In this document: one piece after another, positions 731 to 13,660 of the stretch
How the letters are laid out: each line of letters starts with the position of its first letter
How positions within the stretch are numbered: the first letter of the stretch is position 1
From: a virus
Length of the DNA stretch: 23,890 nucleotides
Reading direction: 5' to 3' (one strand)
Virus record (IMG/VR): IMGVR_UViG_3300044922_000215
Location: 1-23,890 of that record
Notes under the pieces: generated by a model
What the model was told of the DNA's origin: nothing
Databases searched by the model: none
Seen by the model: the letters and a program-made list of their open reading frames with translations, nothing else
Position numbers and translations under genes: made by a program

Positions 731-892
731 AAGTTCCCCTTTCGTGTTGCCCTAAGTATGAGGGGAAGGGCTGACATCCTAGTTTGACACGCCGAAGGGG
801 TCTAATAGTTGTGTATGGACAAACGCCCACACATAGGTTATCGTCATCTTATTGGAGCGAAAGGTAGTAGTTCCAAGAAACGGAAGAAGAAG
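731..892. promoter_or_regulatory. Divergent intergenic region with a candidate rightward -35 element
   Basis: This gap of about 160 bases separates a leftward gene (start 730) from a rightward operon (start probably 893). A perfect TTGACA lies at 784-789 on the plus strand. About 13-16 bases further on are TAATAG (803-808) and TAGTTG (806-811), but neither is a good -10 at the ideal spacing, so the exact promoter is uncertain. No comparable -35 was found for the leftward direction. An in-frame extension of the first rightward gene (TTG at 809 or ATG at 815) covers part of the region and could be translated, but it has no ribosome binding site and reads as a basic low-complexity string. Confidence 0.4.
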
Positions 893-1105
893 ATGAAAAC
901 AATTGTAAAGGTCACTTGCTTAGTCTGCAATTGGTCAAGTCAAGATGCTGATGAAATTGAATCAGCAAATCAATATGGCGAATGTTTAGGTGGATGTGCA
1001 GGTGAAGAAGTCTTGCTTCGTTGGGATTTGCGAGATGATTCAATCATCGTCACTAATAGTCAAACAGGCGACAGAGTTTCCTGCAATGAAAGCGTGGTTG
1101 CATAA
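893..1105 (+). CDS. Small Cys-pair protein (putative zinc-binding), 70 aa
   Basis: I chose the ATG at 893 because a good ribosome binding site (GGAAGAAG, 882-889) precedes it. The frame stays open upstream to a TTG at 809 or an ATG at 815, which would add a Lys-rich extension. The protein has C9-x2-C12 and C31-x3-C35, an arrangement suited to one zinc ion in a zinc-ribbon-like fold, followed by a beta-rich, acidic second half. No named family recognised. The stop overlaps the next start (TAATG at 1103-1107). It leads a rightward cluster of tiny proteins before the primase gene, so a role in early takeover or replication is plausible but unproven. Confidence 0.65.
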   Translation: MKTIVKVTCLVCNWSSQDADEIESANQYGECLGGCAGEEVLLRWDLRDDSIIVTNSQTGDRVSCNESVVA

Positions 1106-1275
1106 TGAAGTGCGATTTCTGTAACAGAAACAAAGAAACAATCAAGACTGCTATTGAATACAGAGGCAATGATGTTTTCAAATTTGATTCATTAGTTTTA
1201 ACTTTTATCTTATGCGCTCAATGCGTTGGTGAAAATTTATCTGCAAGCAATGGGTTCACAAAGGCAGGTGCATAA
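1105..1275 (+). CDS. Tiny CxxC/CxxC protein (putative zinc ribbon), 56 aa
   Basis: Hand-translated from ATG 1105 to TAA 1275. Cysteines form C3-x2-C6 and C37-x2-C40, the typical two-knuckle layout of a zinc ribbon, separated by a charged stretch and a hydrophobic strand (LVLTFILC). One-base overlaps (TAATG) at both ends link it to its neighbours, which is strong evidence that it is translated. No family is recognised beyond the metal-binding pattern. Base composition is AT-rich compared with the late genes. Confidence 0.65.
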   Translation: MKCDFCNRNKETIKTAIEYRGNDVFKFDSLVLTFILCAQCVGENLSASNGFTKAGA

Positions 1276-1472
1276 TGACCAAGAATCGTTTATGGGTTGG
1301 AACAAATGGCAGTGTCACTTGCGATGAACACGCAGGAGTTTATTTGAAGTCTGCTATTGAAAATAATCCAACTGCAAGAAATCACATCACACCTCTTGAT
1401 TGGTGGGTTATTTATAGCGAAGCAAGTTTCCCTTGCGAAACCTGCACCCCTTGGATGGAGATGGCTAAATGA
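1275..1472 (+). CDS. Small Cys/His protein (putative zinc-binding), 65 aa
   Basis: This is the third small metal-site protein in a row. C16-x2-H19 near the N-terminus and C54-x2-C57 near the C-terminus could together form a CCHC-type zinc site; the middle is rich in Trp and Asn. The start overlaps the previous stop by one base and the stop overlaps the next start by four (ATGA, 1469-1472). I know no named family for it. Candidates are nucleic-acid-binding or host-factor-binding adaptors. Confidence 0.65.
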   Translation: MTKNRLWVGTNGSVTCDEHAGVYLKSAIENNPTARNHITPLDWWVIYSEASFPCETCTPWMEMAK

Positions 1473-1594
1473 AAAAGATTCGCTCGATTAGAGTTTCAGA
1501 GCAGTTGTGGCGAAGGGCGCAGGCGAAGGCAAAGTCAGAAGGCAAGACAGTGTCAGAAGCCATCAATGACTTCTTAAAGGAGTTCGTCAAATGA
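1469..1594 (+). CDS. Ribbon-helix-helix DNA-binding protein, 41 aa
   Basis: Hand-translated from the ATG at 1469. The pattern is the minimal ribbon-helix-helix (CopG/Arc-like) fold: a short beta strand with alternating residues (KIRSIRVSE, residues 3-11), helix A (LWRRAQAKAKSEG) and helix B beginning T28-V-S-E-A and running to the C-terminus. Known: such proteins dimerise, the two strands insert into the DNA major groove, and they usually act as transcription repressors or as plasmid/phage partition or relaxosome factors. It is coupled by ATGA overlaps to genes on both sides, directly before the primase. Autoregulation of this operon is a reasonable inference; no operator was identified. Confidence 0.7.
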   Translation: MKKIRSIRVSEQLWRRAQAKAKSEGKTVSEAINDFLKEFVK

Positions 1595-2049
1595 CAACTG
1601 CCGAAATTGCCACCGCCTTTGCCGAACGCGGTTGGTATGTGATGCCTTGCTATCCGCAACAGAAAACGCCATTCTTTCCAATAGCAAAGCAAGGCTACAA
1701 GTCGGCGAGCAATGACCCGAAGGTTGTCAATAAATGGTTTAGCAAGTCACCGCTTCTAAACATTGCCATTGCTTGTGCGCCATCAGGTCTTGTTGTCTTT
1801 GATGTTGACTATCGTAATGGCGGAAGCACAGATGGCTTAGATACCAACACATTTACAGTTGAAACAGGCGATGGTCTGCATCTCTACTATCAAGCACCAT
1901 TTGGCGCTAGTTTTAAGGGTAAATTGCGCGATGGCGTTGATATTAAGTTCAATGGATATGTAGTCACCGCAGGATCAGTTCACGAAAACGGCAAGTTTTA
2001 TGAAGTTGTCAAAGACATTGAGCCTGCCCCTGTGATGGGATGGTGCTAG
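1591..2049 (+). CDS. Stand-alone primase-polymerase (Prim-Pol) domain protein, 152 aa
   Basis: The sequence matches the N-terminal domain of bifunctional DNA primase/polymerases (Prim-Pol, archaeo-eukaryotic primase superfamily). Seen: the metal-binding pair D71-x-D73 in the VVFDVD strand, H97 in the TGDGLHLYY strand, D117 and the GYVVTAGSVHENGKFYE-type block (122-138) that follows in this family. In many phages and plasmids this domain is fused to a D5-like or RepA-like helicase; here the protein stops at 152 residues, so only the polymerase module is present. Known role: synthesising primers, or DNA extension, for replication. It starts within the previous gene's stop (ATGA) and abuts the following membrane protein gene. 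Assignment is firm; activity as an isolated domain is inferred. Confidence 0.85.
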   Translation: MTTAEIATAFAERGWYVMPCYPQQKTPFFPIAKQGYKSASNDPKVVNKWFSKSPLLNIAIACAPSGLVVFDVDYRNGGSTDGLDTNTFTVETGDGLHLYYQAPFGASFKGKLRDGVDIKFNGYVVTAGSVHENGKFYEVVKDIEPAPVMGWC

Positions 2050-2289
2050 ATGAATGGATGGGATTTGCTAATCGTATTCTTCACCGCGTTCTACGCCTTT
2101 GCCATTGGTAGAAGCATCATCATTTGGACTTTATTCTCAGCCTTTTATGGCTTTTGGATTCCACTTCTGATGGTTCTATTTATGCCAAAACGCCAACCAA
2201 GTGCGGTCATCTTCCCTCAATGGTTTATGGATTGGGCAGGGCCTAAATACATCAACCGCAGAATCAAGAAAATGGAGGAACAGTTCTAG
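2050..2289 (+). CDS. Aromatic-rich membrane protein, 79 aa
   Basis: The ATG at 2050 follows the stop of the primase gene without a gap. Two hydrophobic segments, roughly residues 5-20 and 22-44, are unusually rich in Phe, Trp and Tyr; the tail is basic (INRRIKKMEEQF). It would sit in the host membrane with a short cytoplasmic tail. No family recognised; it could be a superinfection-exclusion or membrane-anchoring factor, but nothing shows which. Its last four bases overlap the end of the oppositely oriented epimerase gene. Confidence 0.6.
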   Translation: MNGWDLLIVFFTAFYAFAIGRSIIIWTLFSAFYGFWIPLLMVLFMPKRQPSAVIFPQWFMDWAGPKYINRRIKKMEEQF

Positions 2290-3152
2290 TCACTTGCTAA
2301 GGCAAGAGCGATGCCTTCTTCCAAAGAAATCTTTGGTTGATAGAACTCAAGCATCCTAGAAGGATTTCCAACCCGATAGGCAACCCCAACAGGTGCCTTC
2401 GGGTTGGTTCTTATTTGAGCCAAATAGCCTGCCTGCAACATCACCATCTCTGCTAGTTGGATGAATGAGGTTGGGCGACCTGAACACAAATTGGCAACCT
2501 TGACATCATTTGTGATTGCCTCAAAGGTTGCTTTGACGACATCGTCAATGTGGATGAAGTCGCGCACCTGCGTTCCACGACCCCAAACATCAAAAGGAGT
2601 TGCCTTTTCTTTGCCTCGCTTGATAAAAGATGGGAACGGATAGTCAAGGCTTTGATCGCTTCCGTATCCGCTAAATGGCCGCAGAATTGACACCTTCAAG
2701 CCTTGAGCGCGAGCATAAGAGGCTAGCATCTCCCCTGATAACTTCGCCCAACCATAGGTCAAGTCAGGGGTGCGGATATGCTCAAGGTTGATGTCAAACT
2801 CTTTGAGAGTCTGCTTATATTCTAGTTTTTGCAGATAAATGGGATAAGCAGCGCTTGATGAGAAATAGACAATGTGTCCAGGGCGCGTTCGCAAAGCCCA
2901 TTGGAAGAGGTCTGCATCAATAGCTAAATCAGCAGCAACGCTCAAGGGGTTGCCCTCAATGGTTGCCCGCCCGCCGACAATAGCTGCCAAGTGAATCACA
3001 ACATCAAACTTTGTGTCATCTTTGGCAAAGAAATCCCTGACATCGCGCCCATTCTTTATGTCAATGCCTGTGATGTTATTGAGTTTTGAATCTAAGTGTT
3101 TCTTGAAATTAGTGCCAACAAAGCCTGCATCGCCTGTAATCAGGATTTTCAT
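2286..3152 (-). CDS. NAD-dependent epimerase/dehydratase (extended SDR), 288 aa
   Basis: Extended short-chain dehydrogenase/reductase acting on a nucleotide-sugar. Seen: the Rossmann motif G7-x2-G10-x2-G13, D31 at the end of the second strand (NAD preference), the serine cluster 98-100 and the catalytic Y133-x3-K137 pair. Length is slightly short of the usual 300-340. I chose the ATG at 3152, not the GTG at 3161, because it has a GGGGGAA ribosome binding site and an ATGA overlap with the upstream glycosyltransferase. The family includes UDP-glucose/GlcNAc 4-epimerases, GDP-fucose synthase and dTDP-rhamnose enzymes; the sequence does not let me choose. With two glycosyltransferases in the same message it probably supplies the activated sugar they use. 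Confidence 0.88.
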   Translation of the reverse strand: MKILITGDAGFVGTNFKKHLDSKLNNITGIDIKNGRDVRDFFAKDDTKFDVVIHLAAIVGGRATIEGNPLSVAADLAIDADLFQWALRTRPGHIVYFSSSAAYPIYLQKLEYKQTLKEFDINLEHIRTPDLTYGWAKLSGEMLASYARAQGLKVSILRPFSGYGSDQSLDYPFPSFIKRGKEKATPFDVWGRGTQVRDFIHIDDVVKATFEAITNDVKVANLCSGRPTSFIQLAEMVMLQAGYLAQIRTNPKAPVGVAYRVGNPSRMLEFYQPKISLEEGIALALASD

Positions 3153-3886
3153 TTCCCCCACCTGTCGCTCTCGTATTTGTAAAACTGCGAATCACAGAAA
3201 TCTAGTTGTGCCTTGCGGTCAATGTCAAAGATGAATCGGTCATTGGCATCAAGAGCTGCTCCGATGTGTGAAGTTGGAGTCGGCGCATTAAAGCCAATCG
3301 TGGTTCTTATTGAATCGCCCTCAATAGGTGTTGCAAAGAACGGATCGTGAATGAGAACTGAGTTCTTGACTCTCGGATAGATTTCAGATGCGAGAAAATC
3401 TTGGTCGGTTGTGTAGTAATCCTCTATTTCATTGAAAGCAATTAGTTGCGCCATATCGCGCAACTTGTCGGTTTTTCCGGCAAACATCCCTGCGCTGATA
3501 AGATAGTTGTGACCTATCTTGTGGTCTTTGATGATGTGATAATCAAGACCTGATTGCTCCCACTCTTCGTGCGCTATTCTGTCGCGAAAAGACAGACGAG
3601 CATCAGCATCACGGCAGATGACCACTTCAAATTGCGGGTCAGCAAAAGCAAGATAACGCCAAAGCCTTGCGGTGTTATTTTCTACCTCACTCATCCTTAC
3701 AATCTTCACGCCTTTGACGAGATTCAAAGTGCTTATGACCCATTCATCAACGCTTTCGCCCACATAAAAGACTAAGCGGAAGCCATCCTCAAAAGGGAAA
3801 TAGCGCGAGCCAAGGATTGCATTCTTAATAGCTCCGATGTTGTAGCGCGGATCATTGCCATATAAGGAAAAGGCAATTGCTTTCAT
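3149..3886 (-). CDS. Glycosyltransferase-like protein (GT-A fold), 245 aa
   Basis: An N-terminal Rossmann-like beginning (KAIAFSLYG, residues 2-10), an arginine-bearing helix before the active site (NNTARLWRYLAF) and the metal/nucleotide-sugar DXD motif D93-A-D95 in VVICRDADAR are what point to a GT-A glycosyltransferase. The second half contains DHKIGHNYLISAGMFAGK, typical of the acceptor side of such enzymes. Expected to work in the host cytoplasm on a nucleotide-sugar donor; acceptor unknown (host surface glycan, virion protein, or modified DNA base). ATGA overlaps tie it to the glycosyltransferase upstream and the epimerase downstream. Confidence 0.72.
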   Translation of the reverse strand: MKAIAFSLYGNDPRYNIGAIKNAILGSRYFPFEDGFRLVFYVGESVDEWVISTLNLVKGVKIVRMSEVENNTARLWRYLAFADPQFEVVICRDADARLSFRDRIAHEEWEQSGLDYHIIKDHKIGHNYLISAGMFAGKTDKLRDMAQLIAFNEIEDYYTTDQDFLASEIYPRVKNSVLIHDPFFATPIEGDSIRTTIGFNAPTPTSHIGAALDANDRFIFDIDRKAQLDFCDSQFYKYESDRWGK

Positions 3887-4560
3887 TTCAATAAATCTCG
3901 CAGGAGGACTTGATAGTCCTCGCTCTTGATGTAAAAGTCATAGGCCAAAACATCCAATGAATAAACCTCGCGAGCATTGACAGTGCGATAGCCCTCATCC
4001 CACTCGGCTTTGCCTGCTAGTGGATGGCAATGCTCGATGATGACTTCGGGCAGATAAACGAGGTTGCCAAGGTCTTGACCTAGTTTCTTCCAAAAGTTGT
4101 CAAGATAAAGATGGCGAAGTTTCGGTGGCACCATCCCGCCGAGGGCGATGACGATGGCTTTTGACATCATCACGGCAGTTGGCAGATTTTGGCCTTGGAG
4201 CAGGTCATCGCCATAAGCCAAGCCAGGGGCGGTGCCTATGGCTTTACTCAATGCAATATCCCAATCAGGTGTTCTGAATCTATGGTCATCGCCAATGAAG
4301 GTAAAGAACTCGTATTCATTGGCATACTTCTTGGCAGCGACATTGACAGGATAAGCCATTCCCCTTGTGGTGTTTTCAATCTCCAAGATGTATTCGACAC
4401 CGACTGCGGTGCGATAATTGATTAGTTCCTCATCATCTTTGTCCACAACGAAGAGCAGTTCAGAGCGACAAGAGAACTGCCTGTGTGCTTGCAGAACTTC
4501 AACTGCATTCTTTGGCCTGCCTCTTGTTGGCACAAGCACTAGATTATTTTTCACTATCAT
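3883..4560 (-). CDS. Glycosyltransferase family 2-like protein, 225 aa
   Basis: A GT-A fold enzyme is suggested by the start NLVLVPTRGRP (residues 6-16, the usual first strand plus loop), VVDKDD (38-43), and the F-I-G-D91-D92-H93 metal site. A late YLDNFW block resembles the region that positions the catalytic base in family 2 enzymes. I chose ATG 4560 because GGGGAAATCA immediately precedes it; ATG 4572 would remove that site's function and lengthen the overlap with the upstream gene. It overlaps that gene by 17 bases and the next glycosyltransferase by four. The sugar and acceptor cannot be read from sequence. Confidence 0.75.
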   Translation of the reverse strand: MIVKNNLVLVPTRGRPKNAVEVLQAHRQFSCRSELLFVVDKDDEELINYRTAVGVEYILEIENTTRGMAYPVNVAAKKYANEYEFFTFIGDDHRFRTPDWDIALSKAIGTAPGLAYGDDLLQGQNLPTAVMMSKAIVIALGGMVPPKLRHLYLDNFWKKLGQDLGNLVYLPEVIIEHCHPLAGKAEWDEGYRTVNAREVYSLDVLAYDFYIKSEDYQVLLRDLLK

Positions 4561-4813
4561 TGATTTCCCCATAAATAGCGGTGTAAGCCGCCAAGTCGAT
4601 GATGCTATCTTCGTGGTCAGGTGTCTGAATCAAACGAGCAATTTTGACAAGACATAAACACAAAGCGACCTGTGAAGCACTTATCTCTTTTTCAAGATAA
4701 ACACTCCACAGGTCGGCGATGCGCTTGTGATTGATGTATGGGTCGCCATAAATATCTTGGCGATCCGTTGCGGTGAGGCGTTTAGCCTCATCCAAAATCT
4801 TCCCCGATTTCAT
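4544..4813 (-). CDS. DUF6378 family phage protein, 89 aa
   Basis: The pattern ILDEAKRLTATDRQDIYGDP followed by an all-helical region ending DSIIDLAAYTAI is the small phage family DUF6378. Its biochemical role is not established; members are often found among nucleotide metabolism or accessory genes. I chose the ATG at 4813 because it follows the holin-like gene's stop by four bases; the alternative, a TTG at 4837, would add eight residues from inside that gene. It lies between lysis and sugar genes, so it may simply be carried in the late message. Confidence 0.75.
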   Translation of the reverse strand: MKSGKILDEAKRLTATDRQDIYGDPYINHKRIADLWSVYLEKEISASQVALCLCLVKIARLIQTPDHEDSIIDLAAYTAIYGEINDSEK

Positions 4814-4817
4814 TTTC

Positions 4818-5015
4818 TTACTTACTTCCGCGCCCAAACTCTGTTGCCTTTGGGTCTATGGCTTTTAATATCGGGCCAAGGAATGCTGCAACAAAGCAGG
4901 CAACATAATCCTTTAGAGGGCGCGATGGGTCTGCGAGGTAGAGAGCTGCGACTGAGGCTGCTCCTGCTCTTGCGTAGGTGCTACCAACTGCGATGAGTTT
5001 TTCTTTGTCGAGCAT
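4818..5015 (-). CDS. Putative holin, 65 aa, overlapping the endolysin tail
   Basis: Small protein with two moderately hydrophobic stretches, about residues 14-28 (AGAASVAALYLA) and 38-54 (YVACFVAAFLGPILKAI), charged at both ends, as in actinophage holin-like proteins next to endolysins. Expected role: forming membrane lesions that release or activate the endolysin. An excellent AAGGAG five bases before the ATG at 5015 sets the start. The first 103 bases lie inside the 3' end of the endolysin gene in another frame, an unusually long coding overlap. Holin identity is inferred from size, hydrophobicity and position. Confidence 0.6.
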   Translation of the reverse strand: MLDKEKLIAVGSTYARAGAASVAALYLADPSRPLKDYVACFVAAFLGPILKAIDPKATEFGRGSK

Positions 5016-5518
5016 TTGCACTCCTTGAACTTAGGTCTGCCGAAGCCCACTATGAACACCGGCAGAGATGGAAGGACTTTCCCCCGATTTTTTACTTTGT
5101 AAGCGCGAATCTTACGACATACCTGACCGCCATTGCGTTGGTCGCCTTTGACATCAGGTGAAGTGTTGCCTTCGATGACGATGACAGTGCCATTGCCTTT
5201 GACTTCTTCAACGATACCGATGTGGGAGATGCGGTCAAGGCTATCATTTGGAAAATCAAAGAAGGCTAAGTCGCCAGGCATCGGCTCGGCGGTGGCGAGG
5301 TCTTGCCAACGCTTCGCAGAGGCGAACGCCTTTGCCCCTGCCGGTGTGTAGGTGCAATCAGGAATCTTCAAGCCAACTTGCTTGGCACACCAATTGACGA
5401 AGGCACCGCACCAAGGCTGATTCGCCTTCTGATACTTTGTTTCATTATCGGCAGGGCCTTCAATGTAGCCAAGTTCGCCTGCTGCCACTTCAAGAAACTT
5501 CTCAAGTTGCGAACACAT
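4913..5518 (-). CDS. Endolysin, CHAP domain, 201 aa
   Basis: Cysteine-histidine-dependent amidohydrolase/peptidase. Seen: the catalytic Cys C37 in QPWCGAFVNW, H99 in ISHIGIVEEV, E116 and N118 in VIEGNTS, and the PGDLAFFDF block (81-89) typical of CHAP. The domain fills residues 1-160; there is no separate cell-wall-binding domain. The last 34 residues are a Gln/Ser/Thr-rich tail encoded in the stretch that also encodes the start of the holin-like gene in another frame, so that tail may be constrained by the overlap. Role: cutting peptidoglycan cross-links or the amide bond at the end of infection. No signal peptide, so it needs a holin. Its start overlaps the previous stop (TAATG at 5518). 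Confidence 0.9.
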   Translation of the reverse strand: MCSQLEKFLEVAAGELGYIEGPADNETKYQKANQPWCGAFVNWCAKQVGLKIPDCTYTPAGAKAFASAKRWQDLATAEPMPGDLAFFDFPNDSLDRISHIGIVEEVKGNGTVIVIEGNTSPDVKGDQRNGGQVCRKIRAYKVKNRGKVLPSLPVFIVGFGRPKFKECKCSTKKNSSQLVAPTQEQEQPQSQLSTSQTHRAL

Positions 5519-5721
5519 TATTTCAGCAGAGCTTCTTTCACGATGTCGGTTAGGAAGTCAACCTTATCCTCTAAGACGGCAACTTTGTCCTTTATCGAAC
5601 TTCCACCATTTGGCTTGAGTTCGTTTAGATAATGTTTGACGAGCCACTTTACTCCAAGGGCAGTTGAGCCAAGGATGCTAATAAGGGCGACAACAAAGCC
5701 TGCCCAATCGGTTGGATTCAT
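5518..5721 (-). CDS. Holin-like membrane protein with coiled-coil tail, 67 aa
   Basis: One transmembrane span (about residues 6-27, WAGFVVALISILGSTALGVKW) is followed by a basic turn and a heptad-like helix (IKDKVAVLEDKVDFLTDIV, 43-61). This single-span-plus-coiled-coil design is common for phage holins or holin-associated proteins encoded directly before the endolysin. With another candidate on the other side of the endolysin, one may be the holin and the other an antiholin or accessory. The start at 5721 lies just after the stop of the preceding gene; its stop overlaps the endolysin start by one base. Confidence 0.62.
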   Translation of the reverse strand: MNPTDWAGFVVALISILGSTALGVKWLVKHYLNELKPNGGSSIKDKVAVLEDKVDFLTDIVKEALLK

Positions 5722-5722
5722 T

Positions 5723-5983
5723 TTATGGCTTCAAGTAAAGAACGGAAACTGTGGTCGTGTTTGGTGATGCTGTCGCCGCATAAATCACGCTTTTAAGCGG
5801 AACATTCAAATCAATGGTGGTGTTTTTGTCAAACTTAAATCCATTGGTAGAGCTAACATCACTTCCACCTAGAAAGCAAGGATGTGAATCATCGTTGTGC
5901 AATCTTACAACACGATTTTCGCCATAGCTCTCAACTAGAATTTGAGCAGTTGAATTGACAGTGAGTTGCTTGCTTGAAGCCAT
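5723..5983 (-). CDS. Small beta-rich virion-type protein, 86 aa
   Basis: The sequence is a short beta-sandwich-like pattern: QLTVNSTAQILVES, VVRLHNDDSHPCFLGGSDVS, GFKFDKNTTIDLNV, VIYAATASPNTTTVSVLYL. Proteins of this kind, with the Cys/Val-FLGGSDVS-like turn and an ending of VxVLxL, recur in phage structural regions near tail-fibre genes, but have no settled function. A strong AAGGAG (complement of 5988-5993) precedes the ATG. Position after the adhesin genes suggests a tail tip or fibre accessory protein. Confidence 0.6.
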   Translation of the reverse strand: MASSKQLTVNSTAQILVESYGENRVVRLHNDDSHPCFLGGSDVSSTNGFKFDKNTTIDLNVPLKSVIYAATASPNTTTVSVLYLKP

Positions 5984-12840: not shown

Positions 12841-13248
12841 TTAAGATGTTGATTTTGTGATTGCGCCCGAAATAGGCCAAGTCACACTCGCAGTTGCTAA
12901 TTCTCCCACAGCACCATTAAGAGGTGTCCATTCAGAGATTAGAACTGAGAAGTTGTATTTTGGATTTGTTGCGCTAACTGTTGTGTTGACAGGTCTGACC
13001 TCACAAGCGACTGAGGTTCCAAGCAACGGATAAATCGTTGATTCAACCGAGCCTGAAGCGTAGTCCTGGTGGAACTCGAAACTTACAGAGTTATCTGCAA
13101 GTCCGGCCACTCTCTTTTTTGCCGTGTCACCAAACGCCGTTGTTTCAACGATGTCAAAGGTGGTGTTCAGTGACACGCTCGCAATATGATCCGACAAGTC
13201 GGTGGATGCGAAAGTCACATAGGCATTAGTGAGAACAAGTCGTGCCAT
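12841..13248 (-). CDS. Major tail (tube) protein, copy 2, 135 aa
   Basis: This is one of two adjacent tail tube proteins. Aligned by eye, it is about 70% identical to its upstream neighbour over the whole length. The shared parts include GLADNS-x-S-x-EFHQDYASG and the near-identical end SEWTPLNGAVGELATASVTWP. The family's role is to polymerise into the tail tube. It differs from copy 1 mostly in the N-terminal strand (VTFASTDLSDHIAS), around residue 40 (GDTAKKRV) and in residues 78-86. There is a one-base gap between the stop of copy 1 and its ATG, and no strong ribosome binding site, so translation is likely coupled. Confidence 0.82.
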   Translation of the reverse strand: MARLVLTNAYVTFASTDLSDHIASVSLNTTFDIVETTAFGDTAKKRVAGLADNSVSFEFHQDYASGSVESTIYPLLGTSVACEVRPVNTTVSATNPKYNFSVLISEWTPLNGAVGELATASVTWPISGAITKSTS

Positions 13249-13249
13249 A

Positions 13250-13660
13250 TTATGCAGTTGTCTTTACGATTGCGCCGCTAACTGGCCAAGTGACAGATGC
13301 AGTTGCAAGTTCTCCAACTGCTCCGTTAAGTGGTGTCCACTCTGAAACAAGTGCGCTTGCTGTATAGAGAGGATTGCTTGCGCTTGTTGTGGTATTTACA
13401 GGCTTGACAGTGACAGTGGTCACTGTTCCGAGTAGTGGATAAATTGTTGCTTCAACTTCTCCTGAAGCATAGTCTTGGTGAAATTCAAGACTGATTGAAT
13501 TGTCTGCAAGACCGCCGATGCGTGTGCGAGCTGCATTGCTTGAAAATGCTGTTGTTTCAACTACATCGATGGATGAGTTAAGTGTCACTGATGCCACATA
13601 ATCAGACAAATCAACTGCGTTGACTGTGACTAGGGCATTTGTAAGAACGATGCGTGCCAT
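13250..13660 (-). CDS. Major tail (tube) protein, copy 1, 136 aa
   Basis: This is the first of the tandem pair. It has the same layout as copy 2: N-terminal strand VLTNALVTV, VETTAF, GLADNSISLEFHQDYASG (about 51-68), YPLLGT and the C-terminal SEWTPLNGAVGELATASVTWP block. It forms the rigid tube in siphoviruses. Order in the operon (tail terminator-like gene, a small unknown gene, tube genes, chaperone) fits the canonical layout. One residue longer than its paralogue near position 41. The start is coupled to the preceding stop (TAATG at 13658-13662). Confidence 0.82.
   Translation of the reverse strand: MARIVLTNALVTVNAVDLSDYVASVTLNSSIDVVETTAFSSNAARTRIGGLADNSISLEFHQDYASGEVEATIYPLLGTVTTVTVKPVNTTTSASNPLYTASALVSEWTPLNGAVGELATASVTWPVSGAIVKTTA

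Follow-up and report, generated by a model that had tools for sequence, protein, structure and literature searches.

The operon and its genes

The locus considered here raises the question of why a series of tiny proteins with paired cysteines should be encoded together with a ribbon-helix-helix (RHH) protein and a stand-alone Prim-Pol. It lies in a 23,890-base viral fragment comprising one IMG/VR record, which is referred to in its entirety as the window. The first-pass annotation had placed five ORFs here, coding for 70, 56, 65, 41 and 152 aa; all of these were recovered where it had placed them and joined as it had described, by TAATG overlaps at 1105 and 1275 and ATGA overlaps at 1469 and 1591, and to them we added a sixth gene coding for 79 aa (Table 1). 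Pairwise dN/dS values were low for all six ORFs (70-aa protein 0.17–0.45; 56-aa protein 0.12; 65-aa protein 0.14–0.50; RHH 0.05–0.12; Prim-Pol 0.13–0.15; 79-aa protein 0.07–0.10), indicating that the frames are real and under purifying selection. The frames are also conserved in related phages, a point on which the proposal had beforehand been made to depend. As regards gene order, the relatives have the block RHH – Prim-Pol – 79-aa gene in nearly constant form, whereas most of them lack the three Cys genes or carry others in their place.

Table 1. Features of the operon and its control region in the window
Feature	Position	Strand	Remarks
Divergent early genes, 111 and 50 aa	246..730	-	bound the leader on its other side; conserved across phages
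Putative operator	812..834	+	box TGTATGGACA at 812-821 contains the -35; degenerate second box at ~825-833
Promoter TGGACA-N17-TATCGT	816..844	+	from leader alignment
5' leader stem-loop TTGGAGC-GAAAGGTAGTA-GTTCCAA	852..876	+	7-bp stem, downstream of the -10
70-aa Cys protein, cassette 1 (family 1)	893..1105	+	family also in L005, L007, L015, L020, L024, L051, L077
Cassette 1/2 junction	1090..1107	+	3 mismatches to AAAGGTNGGTGCATAATG
56-aa CxxC...CxxC protein, cassette 2 (family 29)	1105..1275	+	single relative, L157, 75% identity
Cassette 2/3 junction	1260..1277	+	1 mismatch to consensus; tail -KAGA*
65-aa CxxH...CxxC protein, cassette 3 (family 3)	1275..1472	+	relatives in L002, L014, L041, L028, L118, L131, L185
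41-aa RHH protein, constant end gene of array	1469..1594	+	proposed autorepressor
152-aa stand-alone Prim-Pol	1591..2049	+	PF09250
79-aa predicted membrane protein, operon end	2050..2289	+	hydropathy; hydrophobic N-terminal half; no gap after Prim-Pol gene

A hypervariable cassette array

We recovered 74 related IMG/VR loci with the Prim-Pol and based the analysis of the array on the 57 with a recognisable leader, all compared loci being metagenomic. Between the constant leader and the constant RHH gene these 57 loci carry about 40 families of mini-genes in 38 arrangements, with 0 to 6 small ORFs per locus, the state of the window being families 1-29-3. Automatic tiling of the array was complete in 49 of the 57; of the 8 incompletely tiled loci, L050 is devoid of cassettes and the other seven have a family-6 gene that extensively overlaps the RHH gene (six-frame reading; two loci examined). 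The RHH gene is present in nearly every locus, with 70–100% identity, and closes the array both in the 57 loci and in sister phages.

The content of the array turns over rapidly. Among 208 pairs of loci with Prim-Pol DNA at least 90% identical, 21 are identical in cassettes, 53 have some of them in common and 134 have none, and the aligned fraction in close pairs is 0.32 within the array as against 0.90 outside it. In the pairs L039/L047 and L013/L011, which are otherwise nearly identical, one cassette has been gained or lost as an exact unit. The divergence of cassettes is also independent of that of the core: in L005/L015 cassette 19 is 99% identical and cassette 1 64%, with the Prim-Pol at 96%, and in L015/L020 family 1 stands at 95% with the Prim-Pol at 80%. 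Both of these observations indicate module recombination rather than tree-like descent. The segment with the three Cys genes is hence a hypervariable cassette array, whose architecture and shuffling are apparent across the compared loci, and its Cys proteins are exchangeable accessory cassettes that have no relation to the primase.

We also noted a single 109-aa protein in L157 (10360-10689) that is a fusion of the 65-aa family with the 38-aa Cys cassette of L197 (9028-9144, reverse strand); cassettes are therefore able to merge into a longer gene. Furthermore, L041, L024, L008 and L013 have a second, smaller slot between the RHH and Prim-Pol genes, occupied by ORFs coding for 42–51-aa helical proteins, most of which end in -VK* at an ATGA junction resembling the RHH gene's own.

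A common junction between cassettes

The array junctions conform to a consensus, AAAGGTNGGTGCATAATG, which codes for a -KVGA* tail and contains a Shine-Dalgarno-like stretch and TAATG. The ending GCATAATG was found at 36 of 42 distinct family-pair array junctions, as against 5 of the 43 TAATG junctions that these phages have outside the array (P = 2e-12). Beyond these loci the junction recurs in other viral contigs (at least 120 stretches), often between mini-genes, where it accompanies relatives of the 56-aa (one) and 65-aa (several) proteins. Some of these copies separate ordinary structural genes, and the junction is thus not exclusive to arrays in general.

One interpretation that we considered is that the -KVGA tail is a protein signal. 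This was rejected given that L077, a phage of another type, has a family-1 gene outside an array, with its own ribosome-binding site, that lacks the tail, and that the tails change with the junction. As the tail follows the junction and not the protein family, a role at the DNA level is preferred. A generic optimum for coupling was likewise rejected, since other TAATG junctions of these phages do not display the sequence, although some non-array gene pairs in other contigs have it, and the -KVGA similarity could in part be due to convergence on an optimal coupling site. We infer that the junction serves both the exchange of cassettes and their coupling: homologous recombination at this short sequence would exchange them, and its doubling as a Shine-Dalgarno stretch and stop/start overlap would mean that any cassette arrives ready for translation.

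The leader and the RHH protein

The alignment of leaders (45 distinct sequences) yielded a promoter consensus, TTGACA-N17-TANNNT; a scan with this consensus alone was not above chance. A tandem repeat of the GTATNGACA / GTAGGCAC type is present in 48 of the 57 leaders, mostly in direct and, in L157 and L158, in inverted orientation. The TGTATNGACA box occurs in one copy per Prim-Pol-type record examined, solely in the leader. It is altered in one lineage, the very one in which the RHH protein has Asn for Ile at position 4 (I4N), a DNA-contacting position in CopG; because this is a single event, the co-change is weak evidence. Further downstream, the leader hairpin displays covariation, with 92% of the cells paired and 10 cells changed on both sides, as against at most 61% paired when the stem is slid. 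Its loop is nearly constant; in distant phages a hairpin is retained at this place, but the loops differ. A comparison of the leader with Rfam recovered no known RNA family.

The assignment of the 41-aa protein to the RHH fold, made in the first-pass annotation, is sustained by a match to PHROG 6506 (Arc-like repressor; E 1.7e-8), with RHH_1 matching below threshold (E 0.017). The position of the boxes and the one lineage-wide co-change suggest that the RHH protein binds to the boxes over the -35, and it may thereby act as a feedback repressor of its own operon.

Cysteine sites and functions of the cassettes

All three Cys proteins have the paired Cys or Cys/His motifs that had been ascribed to them, and the ligands are conserved in relatives, which had likewise been set as a test: the 70-aa family keeps C9, C12 and C31 plus a fourth Cys at a shifting position, the 65-aa family keeps C16, H19, C54 and C57, and the 56-aa protein shares C3, C6, C37 and C40 with its one relative. 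These conserved residues point to putative zinc-binding mini-proteins. Motifs of the form C-x2-C/H are found in 12 of 41 cassette families, more than in shuffled sequences (mean 3.9, maximum 8), but are no commoner than in the other small minus-strand ORFs of these phages (18 of 78; P = 0.5). Thus, being a zinc protein is not the defining trait of the operon, and we discarded the motif as its unifying feature. The structure predicted for the 70-aa protein is of low confidence (pLDDT 71, pTM 0.59), and this model had no match in the PDB.

Most cassettes have no match in Pfam, PHROGs or PADLOC, the few PADLOC matches being weak, and none of the cassettes matched a known anti-CRISPR family. Among the matches that were found, one cassette family and a related 102-aa cassette contain LPD29, a domain of polyvalent (conflict) proteins in phages and conjugative elements (PMC5512222). 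Two families are DUF7249 and one is C2H2-like with sub-threshold Pfam scores. Gp87 of mycobacteriophage McProf is a 42% match to the 65-aa protein, and its gene overlaps one for an ADP-ribosyl glycohydrolase. These matches, taken with the turnover of the array and its layout, similar to that of acr-aca operons (see below), lead us to favor a role in counter-defence. Given the presence of WhiB in relatives, the freshwater phages sharing the array are probably actinobacterial phages. A similar gene flux has been described in isolated Nanopelagicales phages (PMC10202952).

The Prim-Pol

The 152-aa protein is a stand-alone Prim-Pol as proposed earlier: it matches PF09250 with E 1.2e-27 and 97.7 bits (gathering score 22.8), and its AlphaFold2 model (pLDDT 82) finds 1rni, the prim-pol of pRN1 ORF904, as the best PDB match (E 5e-6). 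The catalytic DxD, H and third-motif D (D71, D73, H97 and D117) are invariant in 24 aligned sequences. In 13 of 15 Prim-Pol-bearing relatives the early module also encodes a Prim-Pol/AAA helicase of about 690 aa, the two exceptions being incomplete records; this count pertains to the relatives, as the window does not extend far enough to include a copy of its own. No DnaB helicase was found in 17 records. The array ends in the RHH gene with no Prim-Pol behind it in L152, L157, L158, L185, L198, L208 and L209, and the gene directly after the RHH gene in L157 and L197 is homologous to the 79-aa gene. Because a further Prim-Pol/AAA gene is present and sister phages have no Prim-Pol at this position, the small Prim-Pol is an addition to the platform and not its purpose. 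From its conserved residues it is probably a catalytically competent primase, and an accessory one since a gene of its own encodes the replicative Prim-Pol/AAA helicase. A scan of bacterial genomes for close relatives of this Prim-Pol returned five distant matches alone (31–36% identity) and identified no host.

In the large Prim-Pol/AAA protein (for example G001 (L081), 2359-4419, minus strand) the DxD is replaced by ELE in all relatives examined. We also considered the small Prim-Pol as the catalytic partner of a defective large one, and set this aside as weak because ELE is also seen in sister phages with no small Prim-Pol behind the RHH gene.

Proposed function and alternatives

Taken together, we assign a probability of roughly 0.6 to the reading of this locus as an accessory, cassette-swapping early operon, with mini-genes for anti-defence or host takeover, an RHH feedback repressor and a semi-fixed auxiliary Prim-Pol. 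One constant leader, with its promoter, operator box over the -35 and 5' mRNA hairpin, would drive 0 to 6 coupled mini-genes drawn from a pool common to many probably actinobacterial phages. Their products may be early-acting factors directed against the defences or other functions of the host, and the RHH protein would then bind the TGTATNGACA boxes over the -35 and shut the operon after an early burst, as Aca does in acr-aca operons. Behind the RHH gene, those for the Prim-Pol (152 aa) and the membrane protein (79 aa) would form a semi-fixed auxiliary unit. A more specific version, which we put forward tentatively, is a plug-in system in which promoter, RHH and hairpin provide a fixed expression platform and anti-defence parts from a common pool are swapped among phages via a junction serving simultaneously for recombination, ribosome binding and the stop/start overlap.

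The first-pass annotation had suggested a replication or host-takeover module. The latter still suits the small cassettes well, while replication around a helicase-less primase is unsupported. One form of the replication reading would be a compact copy-control module in which the RHH and Prim-Pol genes correspond to copG-rep as in pRN1 (orf56/orf904) and the zinc proteins are replication helpers. In pRN1, orf56, a repressor with a role in copy control, is cotranscribed with orf904 (PMC4234260); here too a small RHH gene lies directly upstream of the Prim-Pol gene, ATGA-coupled to it in most loci, and ORF904 provides the closest solved fold. However, this Prim-Pol lacks a helicase part, is accompanied by another primase in these phages, and is missing after the RHH gene in the sister phages. 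Moreover, several loci have other small ORFs between the two genes, and the Cys cassettes are freely replaced. An obligatory copG-rep operon of the pRN1 type is hence not what we observe, since the RHH gene can stand with no Prim-Pol after it and there is a second Prim-Pol/AAA gene, and we consider the replication reading rather improbable.

Under another alternative, the cassettes would not block defences, and would instead alter host metabolism or keep out superinfecting phages. While their position in an accessory operon with a membrane protein at its end would suit this, and high turnover is also compatible with phage-phage competition, the domain searches found no metabolic domain among the cassettes and LPD29 points to conflict functions, making this alternative unlikely. 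Phages commonly show mosaicism and small ORFs of uncertain function (PMC3029335, PMC3233612), and the array might accordingly be mostly neutral mosaicism, with tiny ORFs gained by illegitimate recombination and lost again, and no common function. The purifying selection on the frames, the array-specific junction, the unit-precise insertions and deletions and the recurrence of the same locus and leader in many phages render this very improbable.

Relationship to known systems

The accessory-operon reading finds a close counterpart in the acr-aca operons, in which anti-CRISPR genes are followed by the gene for an Aca autorepressor (PMC9410906). Both have variable small genes followed by one constant gene for a DNA-binding repressor, the repressor role here being proposed, and a conserved repeat-type site inside the promoter, here the paired boxes over the -35 forming a putative operator. 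They differ in that the repressor here is RHH/Arc-like and not of the known helix-turn-helix Aca family, and that the array is larger, with a common junction and a presumptive anti-defence role. Furthermore, if the hosts are Nanopelagicales, these are not known to have CRISPR (PMC10202952). The early anti-defence regulon of SIRV2-type archaeal viruses (PMC11065993) similarly combines diverse small accessory genes with one conserved early regulatory sequence and a small DNA-binding protein (Aca8 there), but its genes mostly have their own promoter copies, as opposed to the one promoter and one polycistronic coupled array seen here. Polyvalent proteins (PMC5512222) also include LPD29, which here occurs as a cassette, and are multidomain polypeptides in contrast to these stand-alone mini-proteins.

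Short conserved boundary sequences have been discussed as sites of module exchange in phages (PMC3029335). The boundary described here differs in that it also provides ribosome binding and stop/start in coupled form, recurs within a single operon and is common to different phages; recombination at boundary sequences, an old idea, thereby becomes testable at base resolution. The parts of the system are ordinary, and it is their arrangement, an operon of variable genes plus repressor with a standard junction, that is unusual. The leader and junction provide a defined address by which dozens of mini-protein families without known function can be listed from abundant, hard-to-culture phages and then screened as probable factors of anti-defence or host takeover.

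Other features of the neighborhood

Two further variable spots were noted in the compared span, at the DNA methyltransferase genes and in the tail region (positions compared by eye). In G001 (L081), a C5-cytosine methylase is encoded in two ORFs of 214 and 281 aa (4433-5937, minus strand), and is either broken, interrupted or an assembly error. In the window, two adjacent paralogues of 135 and 136 aa (12841-13660, minus strand), probably tail proteins, are also duplicated in the relatives. Adjoining the operon in the window (2286-4572, minus strand) are genes for an epimerase and a TAGT-like glycosyltransferase, which possibly function in glycosylation of DNA or of a surface.
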